From assembly GCA_015178975.1 (NCBI GenBank), contig WHVD01000083.1, positions 62,001-126,000 on the forward strand: a DNA stretch of 64,000 nucleotides, given 5' to 3'. Both the position numbers and the translations under genes were made by a program. Below the pieces are notes generated by a model. That model had not been told where the DNA came from and made no database searches. It saw only the letters and a list, made by a program, of their open reading frames with translations. Of this stretch, positions 47,944-62,076 are shown in pieces. The first letter of the stretch is position 1; the number at the start of each line of letters is the position of its first letter. Source of the stretch: Hysterangium stoloniferum (taxonomy: Eukaryota > Basidiomycota > Agaricomycetes > Hysterangiales > Hysterangiaceae).

Positions 47944-48536
47944 GGAGGGTGTTTATAATTACTATAATCTCAAATATTTACTAATAAAAGTCTAATTTTT
48001 ACAAAACTCCATCTTTAAATAGTGATATCTATTCTGAAACAATTATATTATCAAAAAACAACCATCAGAAATAGTTCTCCATATTACATCTTATACAACC
48101 CATAGTTATTTAAAAAGTTGTAATGTAGTTATTTCCATGTAAAATATGTAAAATATTATTGGAAATTTTTCATACCACAGCTGTCTTTATTAAGTAAAAC
48201 CCCCTATATATTCTGGGTATGTTGAATCAAGTAGAAATCTGTTCAGATTGACAGATCCATTCCGAAGTAATACATATGTATTTAGAGGTGCCAATAATAT
48301 ACATATGCATGAAATGGACTATCTAAAGGTATCTATTTTTTAAAAGTATTAGTGTTTCAAACTACTAATTTTTTTTATTGTCTACTTGTGTCTGGAAAGA
48401 TTCTTTAGTTTGTAATGTATGAGAGAGTTTAAAACTTTTTGAAAGTTTTAAAAACCAAATTATGTTTGTCAGATGTTTAAATGACCTTTAGAGTATATTA
48501 GAATTTGGTATACTTAATAGTTTTCAGATATCCTCC
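47944..48536 (+). repeat. Left terminal direct repeat of the 6.7-kb element
   Basis: 593 bp, nearly identical to the right copy over its first 190 and last 65 bases. The middle (about 48,165-48,475) has no counterpart there, while the right copy has an extra 80-base stretch after CCATAGTTATTTAA. It ends just before the transposase stop codon region. Confidence 0.85.
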
Positions 48537-48549
48537 TACTGGAAGTTTA

Positions 48550-49905
48550 TCAAATTTCTTCTCCTTTCTTTTTCCAGTATTCATCTATACACTCTGTGGT
48601 ATCAAAACTCCTCACTCCTTGCCAAGTTACATCTTCATATCCCTTCCATTTTACAAGGTACTCTCTGAACTTTCCTTTTCCTCTATGGTTTATTATTTCC
48701 TCAATTTCAAATGCCTCATCTGTCCCATCCATATCTTCATCATCACCTAACTCCATACTCAGAAAATTTCTTTGAAGCTTGAGCATCTCCTGAGCATTAC
48801 TTCTACTATCTGTCAATGATGGGAGATTTTCATATGTTTCAATATTTTCATCTTTCCAGTAGTCAAACTCTGAAGATAACCATGAAGAGTGATGAGGTTG
48901 AGGTTGAATACCACCTAAAATTACAAACTTCTTCACATTTAATAAGAGACATCCAAGCTTTAACTGGGTTGTGAATACCTCATCATCAGAAACTCTAACA
49001 CCTCCTTCATTACTGAGCTTCTTAAATGTGGTAGCCAACTCTCCAAAAGTAGCTTCAATCTTAGACCTGAAACTACCAAACATTTTGTTAAAGGTACTCT
49101 CTTCCTTTGACAATTCTATACCTTTTGATTTACGTATAGGTATACAGAAGTTAATCATATCTAATTCTGTATTACTTGTTATCTTTGTAAGGTGCAAGGG
49201 ATATCCCCCATCTAAAGCAATACAATCTAGTTTGTCTATATACTTTTCCAATTTCATCTTTACAAACATGACTCCATCTGAATTATCTTTACAGGGTGCT
49301 GACTTTGATGTGAATAGAACCATGCCATTTATATCAATACAAACTTGTGTGCGAAGTCCAGATTTCTTGAGTTTATATGAATACATATCTTCACTCTTCT
49401 CACCAATAACACTTGCTCTAGTATCATGACCATCTATCATTAATGTTACATGTCTAAACAATGGAGGATTTTTTTGTGCAGAATGAATGCGTATATCAAT
49501 AGTTGAGAACATAGAAATGAGCATAGTTGAGATCCTTTTATCAAGATCATTACCTTGTTTTTCATAGAATTTTCTAAACATATCATAATAACTACTTCTA
49601 GGTATAAAGTTTCCCATATCATTTATAGAGCAGCCTTGAAGTAGTTGATATAGTATTAAAAGTCCTTTCTCCACATTTCTATAGGGTCCAGGATAATCTT
49701 GGGTGGCAAAGACCACAACAAGGAAGAAAAAGACTGGAATAATACCAAGTCTCTGAAGAACAATATCCTTAATGTGACTAATTTTATCAATAGGTTTGAT
49801 ATCAGACCTATGATACTTGGATGGCTTGATCTGAGGCCATTCCTTATAAAGGAACTTCCATTGTTGGTCCATTAACTTATTAAACTCCTCATTTAGAGGA
49901 GACAT
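48550..49905 (-). CDS. DDE transposase with C-terminal chromodomain
   Basis: 451 residues, no introns. The central part fits the DDE_Tnp_4 / Harbinger-type fold: D158 in LMIDGHDTRASVIG, D232 in CIALDGGYPLHL and E284 in FRSKIEATFGEL. The C-terminus (about 398-447) is a chromodomain, FEIEEIINHRGKG then EYLVKWKGYEDVTW, with the aromatic residues that bind methyl-lysine tails. The transposase should cut and join the element's ends. The chromodomain would steer insertion to marked chromatin, as in chromoviruses, but here on a DNA transposon. It is divergently oriented to the 50,086 gene, with about 180 bp between their starts. The frame is intact, so it is probably functional. Confidence 0.8.
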   Translation of the reverse strand: MSPLNEEFNKLMDQQWKFLYKEWPQIKPSKYHRSDIKPIDKISHIKDIVLQRLGIIPVFFFLVVVFATQDYPGPYRNVEKGLLILYQLLQGCSINDMGNFIPRSSYYDMFRKFYEKQGNDLDKRISTMLISMFSTIDIRIHSAQKNPPLFRHVTLMIDGHDTRASVIGEKSEDMYSYKLKKSGLRTQVCIDINGMVLFTSKSAPCKDNSDGVMFVKMKLEKYIDKLDCIALDGGYPLHLTKITSNTELDMINFCIPIRKSKGIELSKEESTFNKMFGSFRSKIEATFGELATTFKKLSNEGGVRVSDDEVFTTQLKLGCLLLNVKKFVILGGIQPQPHHSSWLSSEFDYWKDENIETYENLPSLTDSRSNAQEMLKLQRNFLSMELGDDEDMDGTDEAFEIEEIINHRGKGKFREYLVKWKGYEDVTWQGVRSFDTTECIDEYWKKKGEEI

Positions 49906-50085
49906 TGATATGGTAAGTATACAATACTAGGCCAATTTGGAAATATTCAATTTAAGAGAGATAATTGAAGTTATTGTTATTCTACTATATACATAGGTGT
50001 AATAATGAAAAATGAATTATTCCAACTCCAACTATCTTAGGTAGGATATAAGCACATATCACTCTTACAATCTTTACAAACCAAT

Positions 50086-50589
50086 ATGTCTACTTGTTCA
50101 AGATCACTCCTTATTCAACACACTGCTTATAACTGCTTTGTTAGGGACAAAGCAGTAACTATTACAAGAACTAGGGAATCAAACCCTTTTGTTCCACAAC
50201 ACTTTCAAATGCCAATTGTTGGTCCTAAGAAATACACATATTATATTAACTATGATGATCTGGAACTAAGTCCTCCATACAAATTTCAGGATAAGGTTGA
50301 TTTTCCATTTCTCTCTGAAATGATGGGGTATTACAAGTTTATAGGCCTTGAACCAATCCCATTGAGATCATATGACAATAGAATACAAATGTATAATGCT
50401 GTATTTACTCACCCTAATATGGCATTCATAGATAAAATCACTTTTGAGGTGTTTGTATCTTTCCGAAGAAAATTAGATGAATATGAAGAAAGAGTTGAAG
50501 AAAGAGTTGAAGAAAGAGTTGAAGAAGTTCCAAATTCTTCTGGTTGGTGGAAAGGACTACTTTCTTATTTCTCTGTTTGTTGTTTCTAA
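50086..50589 (+). CDS. Unknown 167-aa protein with EERV repeats
   Basis: I do not recognise this protein. The first 130 residues are globular-looking and rich in Tyr and Phe (KKYTYYINYDDLELSPPYKF). A heptad-like EERVEERVEERVEE coiled coil follows at about 138-151. The end is a short hydrophobic tail with cysteines (GWWKGLLSYFSVCCF) that could associate with membrane or be lipidated. It is first of three plus-strand genes spaced by 95 and 26 bases, reading away from the transposase. Intact frame and shared base composition suggest it belongs to the element. Confidence 0.55.
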   Translation: MSTCSRSLLIQHTAYNCFVRDKAVTITRTRESNPFVPQHFQMPIVGPKKYTYYINYDDLELSPPYKFQDKVDFPFLSEMMGYYKFIGLEPIPLRSYDNRIQMYNAVFTHPNMAFIDKITFEVFVSFRRKLDEYEERVEERVEERVEEVPNSSGWWKGLLSYFSVCCF

Positions 50590-50683
50590 ATGTATTGGTA
50601 CTTGATTGTAAATTTTAAAAGTTACATTCAATTTAATAGAGAATATTGAAATTTTATGTATATTATTTAGGTAAGTAAGTCTA

Positions 50684-51307
50684 ATGGAGCAAATCTTAAA
50701 GATATCTGTGAGTGCTGCTGAAAGTACTTCTATCAATCCAAGTAATCTAGAATGCTTCTGGTATGCACCATGGAGTATTATATTAGGAATATTATTTGAA
50801 GCACAATTTGTAATTACTCCACAATTAACCATACAATATGATACAGTAGATAGGGATGAAGTAGATATATCTAAGATTATGATACCAGATTTTGTTGTAA
50901 CTCATTATAAAAAAGATTTACAAGATAAAATACATGAACATAAGTACCTGATAGTAGAAAATAAGAGAACTGATAAAGTTACATTGATGAAAGAATTAGA
51001 GGTAGCCTGTGACCAACTTAAAGAATATATAAGAATAATCTTCCTAGATAAAAGATATAAAGGAATCTTTGGAGTAGCTTCTTCTGGTAGAACCTGGAAA
51101 TGGTACAAGTTTATAAGAAAAAATACTCCAAAGGGTCATAAGTCTAAATCTTCACGGGGTAATAAAAGCTATATCCCTAGTGATGAAGAAGAGGAAGAAG
51201 TATTTGAAATAGTATATAAATCTAAAATACTTGATATTATGGATAAGAAGTCTTTTGATCATCTTGTGAAAGAGATGAAAGAATATTATTCCAAATTGAA
51301 TTCTTAA
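50684..51307 (+). CDS. PD-(D/E)XK nuclease-like protein
   Basis: 207 residues. The order IPDFVV (D69), about 20 residues, then YLIVENKR (E92-x-K94) is the catalytic signature of PD-(D/E)XK nucleases. YKGIFGVASSGRTWKWYKF further on resembles the strand that follows in restriction-endonuclease-like proteins. A Lys/Ser-rich linker and an acidic DEEEEE stretch precede the C-terminal helix. A nuclease could process the element's ends, aid recombination between its direct repeats, or act against competitors; none of this can be decided from sequence. It starts 95 bases after the 167-aa gene and ends 26 bases before the next. Confidence 0.6.
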   Translation: MEQILKISVSAAESTSINPSNLECFWYAPWSIILGILFEAQFVITPQLTIQYDTVDRDEVDISKIMIPDFVVTHYKKDLQDKIHEHKYLIVENKRTDKVTLMKELEVACDQLKEYIRIIFLDKRYKGIFGVASSGRTWKWYKFIRKNTPKGHKSKSSRGNKSYIPSDEEEEEVFEIVYKSKILDIMDKKSFDHLVKEMKEYYSKLNS

Positions 51308-51333
51308 AGATATATCTAGAGAGATTAGGTAAT

Positions 51334-51672
51334 ATGAACTTCCCCAAAGTACTAGGATATAAAGTTAGGGAAGGAAAGATCTTAGAACAGTGTAGAAGAC
51401 ATGGCATAAGTACTGAGGATGGATACACAGGGTCCATCAAAAATTTGATAAGGAGAAGTGGTTGTCCTGTGCTAAATTTCAGACTTGAAAAACAAGAGGA
51501 TAGACCTAAAGGTGAAACTGATGTCTTTATTCTATGTCTTTATGAAACTTTATATCATAAAGAAGAAATAAATGTTCAAGAGGTCTTATCAAAATTTCCA
51601 CCTAGATTTGAAGAAATAAAAAGAGATCTTGGAATAACTGGGGATCCTAAAATTTATTTAATAGAACCCTAA
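51334..51672 (+). CDS. Unknown 112-aa protein
   Basis: I recognise no domain. The N-terminus (MNFPKVLGYKVREGKILEQC) and the basic stretch SIKNLIRRSG could bind nucleic acid, but that is only a guess. It follows the nuclease-like gene by 26 bases and ends 50 bases before the large inverted repeat. Confidence 0.45.
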   Translation: MNFPKVLGYKVREGKILEQCRRHGISTEDGYTGSIKNLIRRSGCPVLNFRLEKQEDRPKGETDVFILCLYETLYHKEEINVQEVLSKFPPRFEEIKRDLGITGDPKIYLIEP

Positions 51673-51724
51673 TTATTTCCCATAAATCCTATTTTTAAAA
51701 GAAATTTCAACTAAACCTCTTTCC

Positions 51725-51961
51725 CATAAATCCTCTTTTTAAAAGTAATCCAAAAATCCTTTAAAATCCCATAATAAAGATTAAAAATTAATAAAGGGTA
51801 GTAGTGGTGACATAGGCTTAGGGGCCAGGGCCCTAGTTAATTTTAATGGTTCTTTTACCCCAATAAAATTACCCAAATTTCAGTTGTCTTCTTACCATAA
51901 TTATTCAGAAGGGCTGTAGCTATTACCATCCAACCTTTTCTATTTTCAGGATTTACCAATA
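51725..51961 (+). repeat. Left arm of a 235-bp inverted repeat
   Basis: From CATAAATCCTCTTTTTAAAA to GGATTTACCAAT; its complement follows at 52,090-52,324 with only a few differences. The spacer is 128 bp. The arms contain AGGGCCCT within a GC-rich island. A related CCCATAAATCCT-TTTTTAAAA word also occurs just outside, at 51,678. Confidence 0.92.
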
Positions 51962-52089
51962 TCTCTTTCTTAGATCTTCAACAACAATAATATCTATTTA
52001 GTGAGTTAGAAACTATATTTCTTTTAGTAAGCTAGGAACTGTATTTGAATTATTAATAGAATTTCTGAAAAGGGGAAGATAGTTGAAAC

Positions 52090-52324
52090 ATTGGTAAATC
52101 CTGAAAATAGAAAAGGTTGGATGGTAATAGCTACAGCCCTTCTGAATAATTATGGTAAGAAGACAACTGAAATTTGGGTAATTTATTGGGGTAAAAGAAC
52201 CATTAAACTTAACTAGGGCCCTGGCCCCTAAGCCTATGTCACCACTACTACCCTTTATTAATTTTTAATCTTTATTATGGGATTTTAAAGGATTTTTGGA
52301 TTACTTTTAAAAAGAGGATTTATG
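52090..52324 (-). repeat. Right arm of the inverted repeat
   Basis: Complement of 51,725-51,961. It lies between the plus-strand block (50,086-51,672) and the convergent minus-strand block (52,378-54,286). No target duplication is obvious, so it may be native to the element rather than an inserted MITE. Confidence 0.92.
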
Positions 52325-52377
52325 ATAGAGTTGGAAGTTAAAGGTGTATGGTAATTTTAAAATATTATAGTGATAGT

Positions 52378-52692
52378 TTAAGGATCCTCTGTTGTTCTTA
52401 TATATTCAACTAATTTTTCTGCCATTTCATCATCTATATTTACCCTGGAAAATAATTTACGTTCAAGATCTTTTCCAATACAGAGAAGGGAGAACACAAC
52501 ATCACTACCACAAGATTCCTCACTAAATTTTGATGATGATCCTTTCTTGATGAGTTTTATATTGAGCTCAACAAATGCTACAAGGATATCTTTCATCTTA
52601 GAATCTAATGACAATGATAAGACTATTAAACTACATATCTCATTTATATGTTGTTCATTAAGATTTGTGATATTAGTCTCAAAGAGGAGCAT
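52378..52692 (-). CDS. Unknown 104-aa protein
   Basis: No recognisable domain. Predicted mostly helical (LFETNITNLNEQHINEICSL, then KDILVAFVELNIKLIKKG). It starts 31 bases downstream of the 520-aa gene's stop on the same strand, so the two may be co-transcribed. Confidence 0.45.
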   Translation of the reverse strand: MLLFETNITNLNEQHINEICSLIVLSLSLDSKMKDILVAFVELNIKLIKKGSSSKFSEESCGSDVVFSLLCIGKDLERKLFSRVNIDDEMAEKLVEYIRTTEDP

Positions 52693-52723
52693 GCTACTAG
52701 AGAAGTAGTAGATTGAACTTTTT

Positions 52724-54286
52724 TCATTTTATACGTATATCTTTCTGTCCTTGTCTTTTTACTATTCTACCAGTTCTGATATAGGTCTTCTCTTTCATAT
52801 CCTTTACAACTTTTTGTAAAGATTCTCCACACCTTACCTTCAATACTTCTGAATTTTTGTCTAAGACTTCTATAACAGTGCAATTCTTTCCCCTATATAA
52901 AAGTTGACCTTTTGATATAACTTGATATTTTGAATTTTCTTTAAGAATTGAGTATCCTGCCTTATAACTAGATACCCTCAAATCACTTATCTCTTCTAAA
53001 TTTTTACTAACTTTATGAATTGGGACAAGGGGAGGTGATTTTTTAGTTATACGAGTATCTACCCAACCAAGTTTTACTCCTTTGTATTCCACAAGTCCTA
53101 TATCACTTGGTGAAAATGAACTCTCAATCCTAGGATAGAGTCCTCCTCTGGGACCAGGTATAAGTGTAATCCCCCTTTGTGACCTTTTGTATTCCTCCAC
53201 TATGGTTATCCCATCATTGACCCTAACAAATTTGGTAGTATTTCCATTAAAACTATAGTTAGAAACTAATTGAATTATATCTTCCTTATTTACATCTTTT
53301 TGGAAGCCTCCTTGGATCTTTCCTGTTAAAGAATTCCACCAATGACAATATGTGAAAAACCTTCTATCTTCCAAGTAAATCATTATTATTGATTTGGAAT
53401 AAATGTTATCTACAAGTGCTTTCCATTGTTCTTCAAAAGAACTTCTGTAGACTCTACATCCACTAAGGTTGTTTCTAATATTGATAAAGTTGTCTATATA
53501 CCAGGACTTAGAAAATACTTCTCTACCATAGAACTTAATTTCAACTCTTGTCATTCCTACATTCTTTAATCTTTCTAGTGATTGTAACATTGAATTGGTA
53601 GGATCAACATATAAATCATGGATTCTAGATCCCAGAGTAGTCATAACATCACAACTTTCTAACATTTGTACAAATTTATTGTATACTTTGATCCTACATG
53701 AGTGATCTTCATTGTAGAAGGATATACAATTGTCTCCAACCTTTTTTCTATCATCAACAATATCTTCTACCTTTATTCCATTATTTAATATATGTTTAAG
53801 AACATCTTTTCTAGTAGTAACATAGGGTATATCTTGGGATATATCTATATCATGTAAGATAATTTCATCACAAATAGTTTCTCTTAGGAACTTTATTATA
53901 TTTTCAATAGAAACTTCAGATAGTGAAATTTTGTATGAGATATAAGGAGTATTTGTAGGTGCGATATCATTATCCTTGAGAGTATCTGAGTATAGTAATT
54001 TGATTTTAAAGGAAAGTGAGAAATATACTTTACATTTTCTATATATATCATTTCTAAAGTCCCCCCCAATAGACCATAGAATTACATTGTCACAAAAAAT
54101 ATGTGAAGTGTTAGAGGATTCAAAAGATAGTCTAATAGCTTCTAAAGGATTGTGATATTTGGTATCCAGAACATCAGGTATACTAAACTCTTTCATAATT
54201 TCAATAGATTCTTTAAGCACTTCCTTTGCCATTGGATAATGTAATAGATACTTTCTCATGGCACTCTTTTCAATTTTATGAGACAT
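52724..54286 (-). CDS. Replication-initiation-factor-like protein (520 aa), tentative
   Basis: Intact 520-residue frame that starts just inside the right terminal repeat. I recognise no eukaryotic family. Three blocks occur in the order seen in plasmid/phage replication initiation factors (Rep_trans-like, PF02486): EIILHDIDISQD at about 140, IKVYNKFVQMLES at about 200 (compare the usual YDK with a following Glu), and MTRVEIKFYGRE at about 245. If right, it would nick one strand of the element and start rolling-circle-type copying. The C-terminal 130 residues are basic (IRTGRIVKRQGQKDIRIK). An unrelated DNA-binding or structural role is possible. Confidence 0.45.
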   Translation of the reverse strand: MSHKIEKSAMRKYLLHYPMAKEVLKESIEIMKEFSIPDVLDTKYHNPLEAIRLSFESSNTSHIFCDNVILWSIGGDFRNDIYRKCKVYFSLSFKIKLLYSDTLKDNDIAPTNTPYISYKISLSEVSIENIIKFLRETICDEIILHDIDISQDIPYVTTRKDVLKHILNNGIKVEDIVDDRKKVGDNCISFYNEDHSCRIKVYNKFVQMLESCDVMTTLGSRIHDLYVDPTNSMLQSLERLKNVGMTRVEIKFYGREVFSKSWYIDNFINIRNNLSGCRVYRSSFEEQWKALVDNIYSKSIIMIYLEDRRFFTYCHWWNSLTGKIQGGFQKDVNKEDIIQLVSNYSFNGNTTKFVRVNDGITIVEEYKRSQRGITLIPGPRGGLYPRIESSFSPSDIGLVEYKGVKLGWVDTRITKKSPPLVPIHKVSKNLEEISDLRVSSYKAGYSILKENSKYQVISKGQLLYRGKNCTVIEVLDKNSEVLKVRCGESLQKVVKDMKEKTYIRTGRIVKRQGQKDIRIK

Positions 54287-54292
54287 CCATTA

Positions 54293-54662
54293 GGAGGGTG
54301 TTTATAATTACTATAATCTCAAATATTTACTAATAAAAGTCTTATTTTTACAAAACTCCATCTTTAAATAGTGATATCTATTCTGAAACAATTATATTAT
54401 CAAAAAACAACCATCAGAAATAGTTCTCCATATTACATCTTATACAACCCATAGTTATTTAACAAATTCCATTGTATATAATTTCCTTCCTTTTACAGAT
54501 GCCTACTAATCCTTTTATTAGTACTTTGTTTTTTAAAAGTTGTAATGTAGTTATTTCCATGTAAAATATGTAAAATATTTGTTTGAATCACATCTCAGAT
54601 GTTTAAATGACCTTTAGAGTATATTAGAATTTGGTATACTTAATAGTTTTCAGATATCCTCC
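54293..54662 (+). repeat. Right terminal direct repeat of the 6.7-kb element
   Basis: 370 bp, from GGAGGGTGTTTATAATTAC to ATATCCTCC, preceded by TTA and followed by TAA. It is shorter than the left copy because the middle about 310 bases are absent and a different 80 bases are present. Confidence 0.85.
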
Positions 54663-54788: not shown

Positions 54789-56160
54789 TGTTACGACCGG
54801 AATTCCCGCCGGACTCCAGGCAATAACTTATACGCACCCATGCCCTATACACACCAAGTGTCAGTTTACCAGAATTCCTGCTGGACTCCATACATCAGAC
54901 TTGTCTACGTTCGACTTTGTTACATTGTGTATCAGTCACCAGAATACCCACCGGACTCCATCCCTGTCTATGTCTGATCTCGTCCCACACATCAGTCACC
55001 GGACCCTGCTTGGGAAACCCATCATCCCTCTAAGAGAGCCCCATTCCCATTTTAGTCAAATGACCTGTCACGATTTGGACTCTGCTCCCGTGTTACGACC
55101 GTGTCGCAACCCTATCGGCCCCGAGGTTATCGCCACTTGTCAACGTTTCAAGTCATCCTCTCGGAAACCATCGGCCCCGAAGCTGATGAATGTTTCGCAA
55201 AGATCAAACTCCATTTACACCCACGTCAAAATAACTCGTATTGTCTGGTCAAACTTTGATACGTCCCCTTTATTATGATTGATCCGTTCAATCTTATGTT
55301 TCGCATATGTCTATCTATATTTGTAGTCCTTGAACCATTTCCTTTTATCGTAATCCCGCTCTCGGTTATCATCGGCCTCCGAACTAATCATAAACTTCCC
55401 ATTCCTAGTCAAGCTTATTGTTAATACCATGTTCCGCCCTTCTCCCCATTAGTATTTTCCAGACGCCTGTTACTTGTATATGAACCCGCTGTAATTGTAG
55501 TTACTAGGCAATCAGAATATCGACTCAGAATACCCTCATACGTCTGTAGCAGTCTCATACTAGAAGAACCCCCTTCCACCTTTGCGTGCGCTCGCCCATT
55601 CTCGGCCCGATCCCTTGGCCCGACACTTGACCTGTCCTTCGGTTCCGATCGGTATCTCACCGAAAGGTCCTTCTTAGGATATAGTCTTCGCCTGTCCGAA
55701 ATTTAAGGACAACCTATGGATATTTGCGAGGGCGCAGCACATAAGCTGAAGCCAAGTCCTTCCGATCGGTCCCCGTCGGCCACCGACATTAGTCAGTTTC
55801 CAGTTCTTAACATCCCGCTCCATTTCCCATTATGGTTTATGATTTGTCATGATTCAGACTCTGCTCCATTCCATCCTGTTCCTAACACCAAATTTGGTGT
55901 TTACTATTCTTGTTTTATGTTTTGCTAGTTTTGTTTCATTATTACTGGATTTGGTATGTCATTCATCCCATGGCCTATATAGTCTGGCAGATGTTGTGCA
56001 TACAATCCAGTCAGAAAATCGGCTTAGATTCCCCCAGTAATCTAATACATTTTCTGCTCTAAACTCCTACTTGAATTACACTGCTCATGCTAGTTGGAGC
56101 CCACGGGCTTCGATGCATCTATCTCTCTTATTTATCTCGACTCCTGACCTCTCAACCCAC
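54789..56160 (+). mobile_element. LTR, family A (copy A4), 3'-truncated, carrying LTR B7
   Basis: Starts TGTTACGACCGGAATTCC and follows family A to about 56,160, where it breaks off before the hairpin motif and the usual CTAACA end. LTR B7 sits inside. TATA-like CCTATATAGT is near 55,973. Confidence 0.78.
55091..55812 (+). mobile_element. Solo LTR, family B (copy B7)
   Basis: This 722-bp repeat has TCCCG duplicated at 55,086-55,090 and 55,813-55,817. The shared hairpin motif is at 55,727-55,758. Removing it restores GCTCCCGCTCCATTTCCC, matching copy A1. Confidence 0.9.
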
Positions 56161-57994: not shown

Positions 57995-60395
57995 CTATTT
58001 GAGACCCAGAAAACCGCGTAGTTTGGTAAATTGAGACAGTTCTAAGGCCTTCGTGAAGATATCAGCTAAATTATCCTTCATATGGATGTAGCGAAGACGA
58101 AAATCCCCAGCCTGGACACATTCCCAGAGGAAATGGAACTTAATGTCAATATATTTGACCCAGGAGGGAAGGAGAGGATCCTCGGAGAGGGCAGTGGCAG
58201 CATTATTGTCACAGAGCATGGTGGTTTGGGGGGGGGGGAAGCATGGAAATACTGCTGAGAAGGCTATGGGGCCAGGTGCCTTCCTTGACAGACTCAAAGG
58301 CGGCTACATATCCCCCTTCACAGGATGATGCAGCAACAGTTTTTTGCTTCTTTGATGTCCAAGAGATAATACCAGAGCCAAGGGTGAAGGCATAGCCGCT
58401 GACACTGTGACAGGTATCCAAACAATTGGCCCAATCAGAGTCAGTATACCCAATCAAAGAAAGGGTGTTGGACCCCCCGAGGCATAGTTGGAGATCACGA
58501 GTGCCTTTTAAGTATCGAACAACTTGAATGGCGGCAGTCCAGTGGGGAGTTGAGTAGCTGTCAAGGTATTGAGACAGTTGTTGAATGGCATACAAAATGT
58601 CTGGGTGTGTGGAAATAGCAAGATAAAGTAAGCAGCCAACAAGGGACCAGTAGGGCAGTTTAAGGATGGCATCCAGGCTAGTTTGGGAGAGAGATGTGTG
58701 ATCGGTCCAACGAAGCTTGAGGTTGTGGTCCATTGGGGTGGAGACAATAGAAGCATGGGTCTGACTGAATTGGCAGATAATTTTGTCAATTAGGGCTGAT
58801 TGAGAGAGAAGGGCAAGATGGTTGTGTCAGTCCAATTCGACAGCTATACCAACAACAAAATGGACAGAACCTAAATCAGAGATAGTCCAAACAGCATGCA
58901 TCTGAGTCTTGAAAGATTTGTTCTCAGCAGCATTGCTGGCGATGGACAAGAAGTCGTCGACATGGATGGCTACAATAATGATGCCGGTCAGTGTCTGGCG
59001 ATAGTAGAGACAAGGTTCACATGGAAGCTGAGTAAAGCCCCAGGTGAGCATTTGCTTGTTCATAGTTTGATTCCAGATACATCTACTCTGCTTCATGCCA
59101 TATAGACCATGTAACATCATCCAGACATAATCATGTTTCCCAGGCTCAGCAAAACCTTCGGATTGTTCCATAAACTGGATCTCATCATCTGGGAGTAGAC
59201 CATAAAGAAAAGTGGTCTTAATGTCAATTTGTTGGGCATCCCATCCAAGAGTGGCAGTGATATGGAGGAGTATGTGCCAGGACTCCATGCGTGCAGTAGG
59301 TGAGGTAGTTTGATGATAATCCTTTCCATATATTTGCTCAAAACCCTTAAAGACAAGCCTGACTTTCCAGCGGACAGTGTTGCCATGTTCATCCCTTTTT
59401 ATACGGAAAACAGGGTGGCCCTTTCTGATTTTGCACCCTTGAGGGACTTCTGACCTAGGGAGTAATTTATAGACTCCCATCGCCTTGAGGGAATCAAGTT
59501 CATCTTGGAAACCAGCCTGCCACCGCTCTGCATCCCCTGAGCATAATGCCTCCTCCCAGGTTTTGGGCTCATCATTGCAGGTGAGTGGATCGATCCCAAT
59601 GCCGTCAGAGATGGCTGCTAAAGTGAGATCGAAGCTAGGGGAGTCGTATCCTGAGTTTAGGGACAAGAGAGCATCTTGTATTTGCTCCAGGTCAGGAGAT
59701 GGGGAAAGTTCAGGCATGTTGATGATAGCTTGTGAACATGCTAATTTTTCAAGGTGCAGATGTTCAGCACTATCCTTCGATGCCTGAATGGATTGCTGGA
59801 GTCTATTGGACCCTGGGGGAATACCGGCTGTCGTACAAGTGGAGCGGCGAAGAGGTTGCTGATTGGGGGGAGGTAATGTGTCTGGCACTTCTGAAATGAT
59901 AGGGAGTGGTGGTGGAGGTTTATCATAGGCATCAATGGAAGAGCTGATGGTAGTAGACCCGGAAGATAGTGGCAATGGAGACGTGGTAAGGGGAGCATCA
60001 GTCCTAGATGGAGGTGATTTAGGGTGGCCGTAATGACTTTCTAGGAAACGAACATGATAAGAACTATAGATTTGGTGGGTCACAGTATCATAGCATCAAT
60101 ACGATTTTGATTTTGCATTATACCCAACTAGTATGCATTCGATAGAGCATTCAAATATTTTTGGGTTTGTTTTGTTTTGAATGAGGACGAAAGCATGACA
60201 TCCGATCTCTTTCATGTAAGAGTAGTCAGGGGGATGCTTGTACCAAAGTTCCCAGGGGGTCTTGTTTTGAAGGGTAGTGGTGGTAGTTTTTACATGAAGA
60301 TGGGCTGCAGTGAGGTATAATTCATCCCATAAGTAAGCAGGTAGACCAGCGTAGATACACATTGATCTCACTTTTCCCATAAGTGTCTGATGCAT
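57995..60395 (-). pseudogene. Copia integrase C-terminus, reverse transcriptase and RNase H
   Basis: The integrase tail is at 60,395-60,096 (LPAYLWDELYLTAAHLHV, TPWELWYKHPPDYSYMKEIG). Reverse transcriptase is at 60,083-58,827, open for 418 codons: RLVFKGFEQIYGKDYHQTTS, DIKTTFLYG, LHGLYGMKQSRCIWNQTM and the catalytic IHVDDFLS. RNase H is at 58,733-57,995: DILYAIQQLSQYLDSYSTPH, GYTDSDWANCLDTCHSVSGY, KQKTVAASSCEGGYVAAFES and ADIFTKALELSQFTKLRGFL. Frame breaks near 60,090, 58,820 and 58,200 (at a G run) inactivate it, but it is among the better-kept elements here. Confidence 0.87.
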
Positions 60396-61357: not shown

Positions 61358-62076
61358 TGTTAAGAACTGGAAACTGACTAATGTCGGTGGCCGACAGGGA
61401 CCGATCGGAAGGACTTGGCTTCAGCTTATGTGCTGCGCCCTCGCAAATATCTGTAGGATGTCCTTAAATTTTGGGCGGGCGAAGACTAATCCTAGTGAGT
61501 ACCTTTCGGCGTGATACCAATCGGAATTGAAGGACAAGTCGAGCGTCGGGCCAAGGGGTCGGGGCCGGGAGTGGGCGAGCGCACGCGAAGGCGGATGGGG
61601 GGATTCTGAGTATGAGACTGATACAGGCGTATGAGGGTATTCTGAGTCGATATTCTGATTGCCTAGTAACTACAACTATAGCGGGTTCATATACAAGTAA
61701 CAGGCGTCTGGAAAATACTAATGGGGAGAAGGGCGGAACACGGTATTAACAATAAGCTTGACTAGGAACGGGAAATTTATGATTAGTTCGGAGGCCGATG
61801 ATAACCGAGAGCGGGATTACGATAAAAGGAAATAGTTCAAGGACTACAAATATAGATAGACATATGCGAAACATAAGATTGAACGGATCAACATAATAAA
61901 GGGGACGTATCAAAGTTTGACCAGACAATACGAGTTGTTTTGACATGGGTGTAAACGGAGTTTGATCTTCGCGAAAACATTCGTCAGCTTCGGGGCCGAT
62001 GGTTTCCAAGAGGGTGACTTGTCGTTGACAAGTGGCGATAACTCGGGACCGATAGGGTTGCGACACGGTCGTAACA
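61358..62076 (-). mobile_element. Solo LTR, family B (copy B6)
   Basis: 719-bp minus-strand LTR with ACAGT duplicated at 61,353-61,357 and 62,077-62,081. The shared hairpin motif is at 61,411-61,442. It interrupts the copia frame. Confidence 0.9.

Follow-up and report, generated by a model that had tools for sequence, protein, structure and literature searches.

Can a transposase gene, a nuclease-like gene and a gene resembling those of replication initiators travel together between long direct repeats as one DNA transposon, and how would such a layout be kept? The question is raised by a region of about 6.7 kb in the basidiomycete Hysterangium stoloniferum (assembly GCA_015178975.1; 111,116,353 bases in 554 contigs). 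The region lies at positions 47944-54662 of a 64,000-nucleotide stretch of contig WHVD01000083.1 (contig positions 62,001 to 126,000, forward strand), hereafter the window. An earlier reading of the letters without database searches (the sequence-only reading) had proposed a single mobile unit joining a DDE transposase with a chromodomain, a nuclease-like gene and a Rep-like gene, and this proposal was upheld. The region is a mobile unit with at least seven further copies of the same layout in the 111-Mb genome, and it represents a real, recently active, multi-copy transposon lineage in which a published layout occurs on a different transposase. With a probability that we put at about 0.55, the element is a replicon-transposon hybrid, in which a DNA transposon using a PIF/Harbinger-like transposase has acquired a plasmid-like phase. 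Judged by its active-site residues, its 520-amino acid (aa) protein is a probable rolling-circle initiator, which in an element of this sort would be a novelty.

Mobility and matched terminal repeats

The inserted form consists of repeat, core and repeat with a 3-bp duplication on either side (Table 1). The window does contain the TAA flanks, the direct repeats (593 bp on the left, 370 bp on the right) and the six open reading frames (ORFs) described earlier, and the G+C content of the element is 30.6% against 43.8% in the rest of the window. When the flanks were joined with a single TAA, all 218 bases matched other copies of the same host repeat without interruption (best matches 94%, 93% and 93%; 40 of 59 candidates scored), and the three paralogous empty sites that were aligned have one TAA each where the window has two. 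The element entered this site as one unit with duplication of TAA; further copies and one-TAA empty sites, which had been suggested as a check, both exist. The other copies are named here by contig (C1, C71, C113, C152, C177, C212, C323, C332, C441, C442 and C464). Matching 3-bp duplications were found in seven of the eight copies having both outer ends located: TAA in the window, ATT in C71, C441 and C152, AAT in C113 and ATA in C1 and C442. Solo or near-solo repeats (L002-L008) showed a 3-bp duplication in 7/7 examined. Across elements and solo repeats TAA occurs once, the others being ATT, AAT, ATA, TAT, CTA and CAT; the duplications are mostly AT-rich, and the TWA target that had been assumed is not the rule.

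Table 1. Positions of the element's features in the window
Feature	Position	Strand	Basis
Left target-site duplication, TAA	47941..47943	.	duplication and empty-site comparison
Left terminal direct repeat, 593 bp (82 bp under the 675-bp form), GGAGGG..CCTCC ends	47944..48536	+	
DDE_Tnp_4 transposase, 451 aa, with C-terminal chromodomain	48550..49905	-	
Short direct repeat, 28 bp, copy 1 (partner 50626-50653)	49945..49972	+	
167-aa ORF, optional in the family, without known domain	50086..50589	+	
Short direct repeat, copy 2	50626..50653	+	
PD-(D/E)XK nuclease-like protein, 207 aa	50684..51307	+	
112-aa ORF, varies jointly with the nuclease-like gene	51334..51672	+	
Inverted repeat at the centre, where the gene blocks converge (arms about 300 bp)	51725..52324	.	
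104-aa ORF, without known domain	52378..52692	-	
Rep_trans/gpII-like putative rolling-circle initiator, 520 aa	52724..54286	-	
Right terminal direct repeat, 370 bp (305 bp under the 675-bp form)	54293..54662	+	
Right target-site duplication, TAA	54663..54665	.	duplication and empty-site comparison

The transposase matched the Pfam models DDE_Tnp_4 (E = 4.7e-10, 39.7 bits against a cut-off of 24.8) and Chromo (E = 1.9e-6). In an alignment of the window protein with 32 of 120 listed homologues, D158 and D232 were invariant and E284 was at least 90% conserved, confirming the DDE triad and C-terminal chromodomain that had been read from the sequence. The chromodomain had also been taken as unknown on such transposases; this was mistaken, as many of the 120 listed homologues carry it, proteins of Mortierella, Apophysomyces and Cunninghamella among them. 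The relatives named in the transposase and Rep-like protein searches belong to Rhizomucor, Apophysomyces, Mortierella, Entomortierella and Cunninghamella, all members of the Mucoromycota and Mortierellomycota. The transposase and the other genes differ in degree of divergence: among copies, the transposase part (window 48540-49970) is 97-99% alike in DNA and the rest of the core 85-89%, as if one transposase version had swept through the copies.

Intact ORFs, which the earlier reading had set against otherwise dead repeats, also exist elsewhere: the window, C71, C441 and C113 all have open frames for the transposase, the nuclease-like and Rep-like proteins and the 112- and 104-aa proteins, apart from a single stop close to the beginning of Rep in C113. 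The core genes are under purifying selection. Ratios of nonsynonymous to synonymous substitution (dN/dS), calculated by the Nei-Gojobori method for pairs of copies, were 0.36 for the transposase (21 pairs), 0.16-0.38 in 10/10 pairs for the Rep-like gene, 0.26 on average for the nuclease-like gene (27 pairs), 0.33 for the 112-aa ORF (24 pairs, up to 0.83), 0.30 for the 167-aa ORF (6 pairs) and 0.46 on average for the 104-aa ORF (32 pairs, 0 to 1.46; 0.22-0.31 versus the window). Recent activity, which had been suggested together with horizontal arrival, is supported; no evidence was found in favour of the latter.

The undeleted terminal repeat is 675 bp long. The lengths of 593 and 370 bp hold as measured, but not as the full-length form, both window repeats being internally deleted. 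Since the full repeat begins with GGAGG and ends with CCTCC, it is itself a unit like a miniature inverted-repeat transposable element (MITE). Its left-end 28-mer (up to two mismatches) occurs 435 times in the genome and its right-end 23-mer (up to one mismatch) 774 times, with no occurrence of either reversed control pattern. Junctions from left repeat to core number at least 20 and those from core to right repeat at least about 25 (40 scored for each), so that most repeats are probably solo. The start codon of the Rep-like gene is 6 bp from the right repeat and the stop codon of the transposase gene 13 bp from the left one; with gene ends this close, the repeats may supply regulatory signals.

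Left and right repeats were compared in the six copies with two full-length repeats; C212, C464, C177, C332, C323 and other partial copies were excluded because one repeat was missing, cut or not fetched. Within copies the differences were 0/675 in C441 and C152, 1/675 in C71, 4/674 in C442, 6/675 in C113 and 10/671 in C1, whereas left-right comparisons between the same copies (n = 30) gave a mean of 6.6% (range 0.3-14.8%), and the true pairing ranks best among the 720 possible. The window repeats differ at 1/281 positions in gap-free shared blocks, which were used because MAFFT misaligns this pair owing to the two deletions (44/293 and 39/293); with the misaligned row retained, the true pairing is equalled or surpassed by 5 of 5040, itself among them. 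The two C1 repeats are 98.4% like each other and only 85-89% like other full-length repeats. Because repeats are nearly identical within a copy and divergent between copies, each insertion seems to derive from a form with one repeat per core, and thus to pass through a one-repeat stage, circular or concatemeric. These matched pairs, a pattern like that of long terminal repeats (LTRs), are a new observation here. Repeat differences also tend to follow gene decay: C1 and C442, with broken genes, have 10 and 4, and the intact C71, C441 and window copies have 0-1. The exceptions are C113, with 6 differences and nearly intact genes, and C152, with none though a later insertion interrupts its Rep gene; as a clock, seven copies are too few to be firm. 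A second terminal-repeat subfamily (L017 and the flank of L022), about 76-89% alike, borders an otherwise standard core in C1.

The Rep-like protein

Fifty homologues of the 520-aa protein were found, among them proteins of Rhizomucor pusillus and Apophysomyces, and 45 of them were aligned with the window protein (46 rows; five fragments omitted). A profile search with this alignment returned 53 proteins at E<=10, of which 50 were known before. K200, Y202, K204, Q207 and R247 are present in 46/46 rows, D148, D152 and E249 in 45/46, D146 in 44/46 and D66 in 40 of the 41 rows that are ungapped at this position. Nine relatives of the filamentous-phage protein gpII show D3, D144, Y198, K200, R244 and E246 in 9/9 and E203 in 8/9. 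The order is the same in both families and the spacing almost so: D148-Y202-K204-R247-E249 (54, 2, 43, 2) in the Rep-like proteins and D144-Y198-K200-R244-E246 (54, 2, 44, 2) in gpII, the Tyr-Arg distance being 45 versus 46. The active-site motifs given for Rep_trans in the available portions of a review and two research papers are an Asp in N', RxD, T/SxY/ExG, YxKxxE (with Gln in RepSTK1) and W/LxRxE (PMC5714925 and PMC4797284 among them), and M13 initiators are said there to have similar motifs. In our alignment the N' Asp, motif I, motif III (YxKxxE/Q) and motif IV (RxE) were found, motif I as DxD instead of RxD, and motif II matched loosely. A pattern written after seeing the alignment is present in 42/46 members, 0/120 transposase homologues and 27 of 100,000 shuffles, and the Rep-like blocks noticed in the window protein hold in this form. 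One of the 46 proteins scanned (P0049) matches PHROG 702, 'replication protein', at E = 1.6e-6 over residues 133-288; this family contains the filamentous-phage gpII protein, since M13 gene X matches it at 7.3e-33. The 520-aa protein is likely, though not proven, to be an initiator of the Rep_trans/gpII type, and the evidence at family level is thin.

Weaker matches were DUF5712 (9.7e-4, one of 46, the best in Pfam), PHROG 37286 (2.6e-4, one of 46) and, for the window protein, ribosomal protein S4 (0.0052). PF02486 (Rep_trans) has no match in the element's own genome. No relatives of the Rep-like protein were found in prokaryote genomes or, like those of the DDE and nuclease-like proteins, in pattern-based scans of viral contigs; a search of phages and plasmids with P0049 gave no relatives, with two plasmid matches at E = 3 and 6. 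Other phage initiators were tried as a yardstick and proved to be of a different class. Linkage of Rep-like and DDE genes in other species was sought through proteins sharing a source and a contig of equal size, using 42 of 50 Rep homologues and, from the 120 DDE homologues listed, 111; rows that lacked a size or lay on very long contigs were omitted. Three Rep homologues, in four pairs, coincide with a DDE homologue where about 0.5 would be expected; one pair must be chance because a contig of 3407 bases is too short for the Rep gene together with both DDE genes. This route was set aside as suggestive only.

Proposed life cycle, rival explanations and known systems

In the proposed cycle the Rep_trans/gpII-like protein would nick the element and drive rolling-circle copying, yielding a circle or concatemer with one repeat per core. 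The DDE transposase would cut two successive repeats, each at its outer end, and insert the resulting repeat-core-repeat, perhaps guided to marked chromatin by its chromodomain; the nicking, the circle and the division of labour among the proteins are our inference. Both repeats would start identical because the insertion is cut from a one-repeat-per-core form. With both end signals in every repeat, single repeats may likewise be mobilised by the transposase, and the hundreds of solo copies would have arisen in this way. The central inverted repeat of about 600 bp was found in 10/10 copies examined, its arms 86-91% alike within a copy, and its window strand folds 40 standard deviations better than 20 shuffles. 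The two arms keep separate identities across copies (window 51725-52324, L014, L027 and others). In C212, opposite arms are 87-95% and same arms 78-87% alike in comparison with the seven other main-type copies, and C442 and C441 arms are 99.3% alike when swapped versus 87.5-88.5%. With the arms swapped in these two, the block has flipped in two of ten copies; that it serves replication or termination is a guess. A fuller version of the cycle is possible but less likely than not: the DDE transposon would alternate between a rolling-circle episome, started by a non-HUH initiator of the Rep_trans/gpII type, and concatemer-derived insertions, with LTR-like identical repeats arising without reverse transcription and the palindrome acting in replication and flipping meanwhile.

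Several results weigh against a plasmid-like phase. No circle or concatemer was seen, and no tandem elements occurred among the 20 left and about 25 right junctions listed, which were compared by eye, although assembly may hide multimers sharing a repeat. C464 has no matching duplication (CTT and TAT), its right side being rearranged. Gene conversion between the two repeats would equally make them alike. The window 520-aa protein has no PHROG match at E<=0.01, and the Rep-like protein goes unrecognised in searches of Pfam, NCBIfam, PDB, phages and plasmids. Aligned to gpII by hhalign, the full Rep alignment scored 17.3, inside the shuffled range (maximum 19.4, 40 shuffles), and a sub-alignment of the P0049 group 25.6, just at the shuffled top (25.5, 60 shuffles). 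A gpII profile ranked P0049 first but at E = 0.037, followed by P0040 (0.33) and then a shuffled protein (0.63).

The layout itself has a precedent in KolobokP, an animal transposon of the Kolobok superfamily (Kojima & Bao 2022, PMC9587614). According to the available parts of that paper, its layout is unlike that of any other DNA transposon, and how the composite lasts and whether a circle is involved are left open. A composite of this kind without a replicon phase is the rival that we consider possible but rather unlikely: the DDE enzyme would move repeat-core-repeat as a unit, gene conversion or unequal crossing-over would keep the repeats alike and the 520-aa protein would be accessory. 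KolobokP shows the same layout with no Rep gene reported in those parts (PMC9587614), and mosaic copies such as C152 compared with the window show that recombination among copies is common. Two copies with no differences in 675 bp and a rare repeat type on both sides of C1 speak the other way, as does the clock-like rise in differences from intact to broken copies, but C113 departs from it and n is small. Homologous recombination of a circle, made of the core and one repeat, into a genomic solo repeat corresponds to model b1 of the KolobokP paper in its available parts (PMC9587614). The outer duplications would then belong to the solo repeat and are expected here too, and hundreds of solo targets exist. 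This explanation predicts, however, left and right repeats differing by the circle-target distance, and there is no clearly mixed pair in the six full pairs; a strict preference for near-identical targets could hide such pairs, and we regard this route as improbable.

A DNA virus or plasmid, now degenerate, that was captured by a Harbinger-like MITE system and was the source of the Rep-like and nuclease-like genes is very improbable as a rival, and as an origin it is compatible with the plasmid-like reading. Rep_trans/gpII proteins are known, from the portions of the literature at hand, in plasmids, phages and integrative and conjugative elements, and the uneven divergence of the transposase and the other genes would suit a capture; yet none of the six ORFs matches a structural protein in Pfam or PHROGs, and the viral-contig scans and the phage and plasmid searches described above revealed no relative. 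That two MITEs flank unrelated genes by chance is hardly credible. The repeats are MITE-like and have their own duplications when alone, but dispersed copies share inner borders and gene order, have matched repeat pairs and show purifying selection. The sequence-only reading had named two independent MITEs as the case that would overturn it, and this case is refuted by seven copies, some with broken genes, that have the same layout, matching duplications at their outer ends and repeats that agree in pairs.

Long terminal direct repeats had been held to be unknown on DNA transposons. As far as the available parts of its description go (PMC9587614), KolobokP has them (about 450 or 660 bp, against 675 bp here), with inverted ends on each, solo repeats, a DDE transposase and a nuclease inside and flanking duplications. 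It differs, in the same parts, by its Kolobok superfamily transposase, animal hosts, His-Me finger nuclease and common multimers (PMC9587614). The present element is fungal, combines a DDE_Tnp_4 domain and chromodomain with PD-(D/E)XK-like and Rep-like genes and a central palindrome, and shows no multimers in the listed junctions; left/right repeat identity was tested here. It shares with KolobokP the order repeat-core-repeat, the ends on each repeat and the solo repeats, but not the Kolobok transposase with its TTAA-type target, as the match is to DDE_Tnp_4 and the 3-bp duplications lack TTAA. A TWA target and a Myb partner are canonical PIF/Harbinger features. The element resembles this superfamily in its DDE_Tnp_4 catalytic domain, 3-bp duplications and MITE-like derivatives, and differs in duplications that are not generally TWA, long direct repeats, a Rep-like gene and the lack of a Myb/SANT partner, no Pfam Myb match being found in the six ORFs or among six alleles of further copies. 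According to the available parts of PMC12730594, there are relatives of Harbinger that have different duplications and no Myb. By its transposase domain the element appears PIF/Harbinger-like; we do not file it as a member.

With Rep_trans (PF02486) and gpII (PF05144) the 520-aa protein shares the N' Asp, a DxD-type motif, YxKxx[E/Q] and RxE in the same order; it differs in being missed by the Pfam models, in its context of a eukaryotic DNA transposon and in a long C-terminal region with no recognised kin. Helitrons and Replitrons are also eukaryotic transposons with a rolling-circle-type initiator, and in them the HUH enzyme itself serves as transposase, whereas here a DDE transposase stands alongside a non-HUH initiator-like protein. 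Bacterial composite transposons flanked by insertion sequences and LTR retrotransposons likewise have direct repeats at both ends and solo repeats, with LTR-like identity of the pair. In the present element, by contrast, the transposase gene lies between the repeats, not within them, and Pfam found no reverse transcriptase domain in the six ORFs. Literature searches, with subscription journals mostly outside their coverage, returned the KolobokP paper alone for composite transposons with long terminal direct repeats, and no such element for Harbinger with chromodomain, Mucoromycota, Rep/nuclease or composite/rolling-circle combinations. Searches on HUH or terminal-direct-repeat transposons and on Rep, transposase and circles gave, KolobokP aside, no such element, and none is described in the available portions of PMC12730594 and PMC7928374. 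A second, apparently unrelated transposase type with the KolobokP layout, matched repeats and a conserved initiator-like gene makes the question of how the layout lasts, and of a circle, testable. Should the initiator prove real, this would extend to a eukaryotic transposon a class described, in the sources at hand, for bacterial plasmids, phages and conjugative elements, and would add a route for the multiplication of DNA transposons.

Other core genes and neighbouring sequences

The nuclease-like protein has the PD-(D/E)XK residues reported for it (D69, E92 and K94), all three in 4/5 aligned alleles (C464 lacks the Asp). Matches of its alleles to Pfam stay below threshold: DUF3841 (0.031), TnsA-like N (0.038) and ERCC4 (0.057), the last two of which have the PD-(D/E)XK fold. 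For the window protein the only Pfam match is DUF7476 at 0.072. The nuclease-like and 112-aa genes (window 50684-51672) switch jointly, like a matched pair, between two allele types of about 62-65% and 68-69% aa identity, respectively, on otherwise shared backbones (L018, L020, L021, L023, L025 and L027). The copies are mosaics and recombination among them is common: C152 is like the window at 96-98% in Rep, 99% in the 104-aa ORF and 99.6% in the DDE gene, and at 63% and 68% in the nuclease-like and 112-aa genes. The segment with the 167-aa ORF, between the 28-bp direct repeats, is absent from several elements.

In L032 (C441:4500-10500), near a contig end, the Rep half of the element forms a head-to-head inverted duplication with identical 12 bases beyond both outer ends, either a fold-back rearrangement or an assembly artefact. 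A 296-aa ORF at window 58827-59717 resembles a fragment of a copia-type reverse transcriptase, as judged by eye with no search made. To the right of the element, a repeat of about 300 bp at window 54789-55088 recurs inside element copies L029, L030 and L031.

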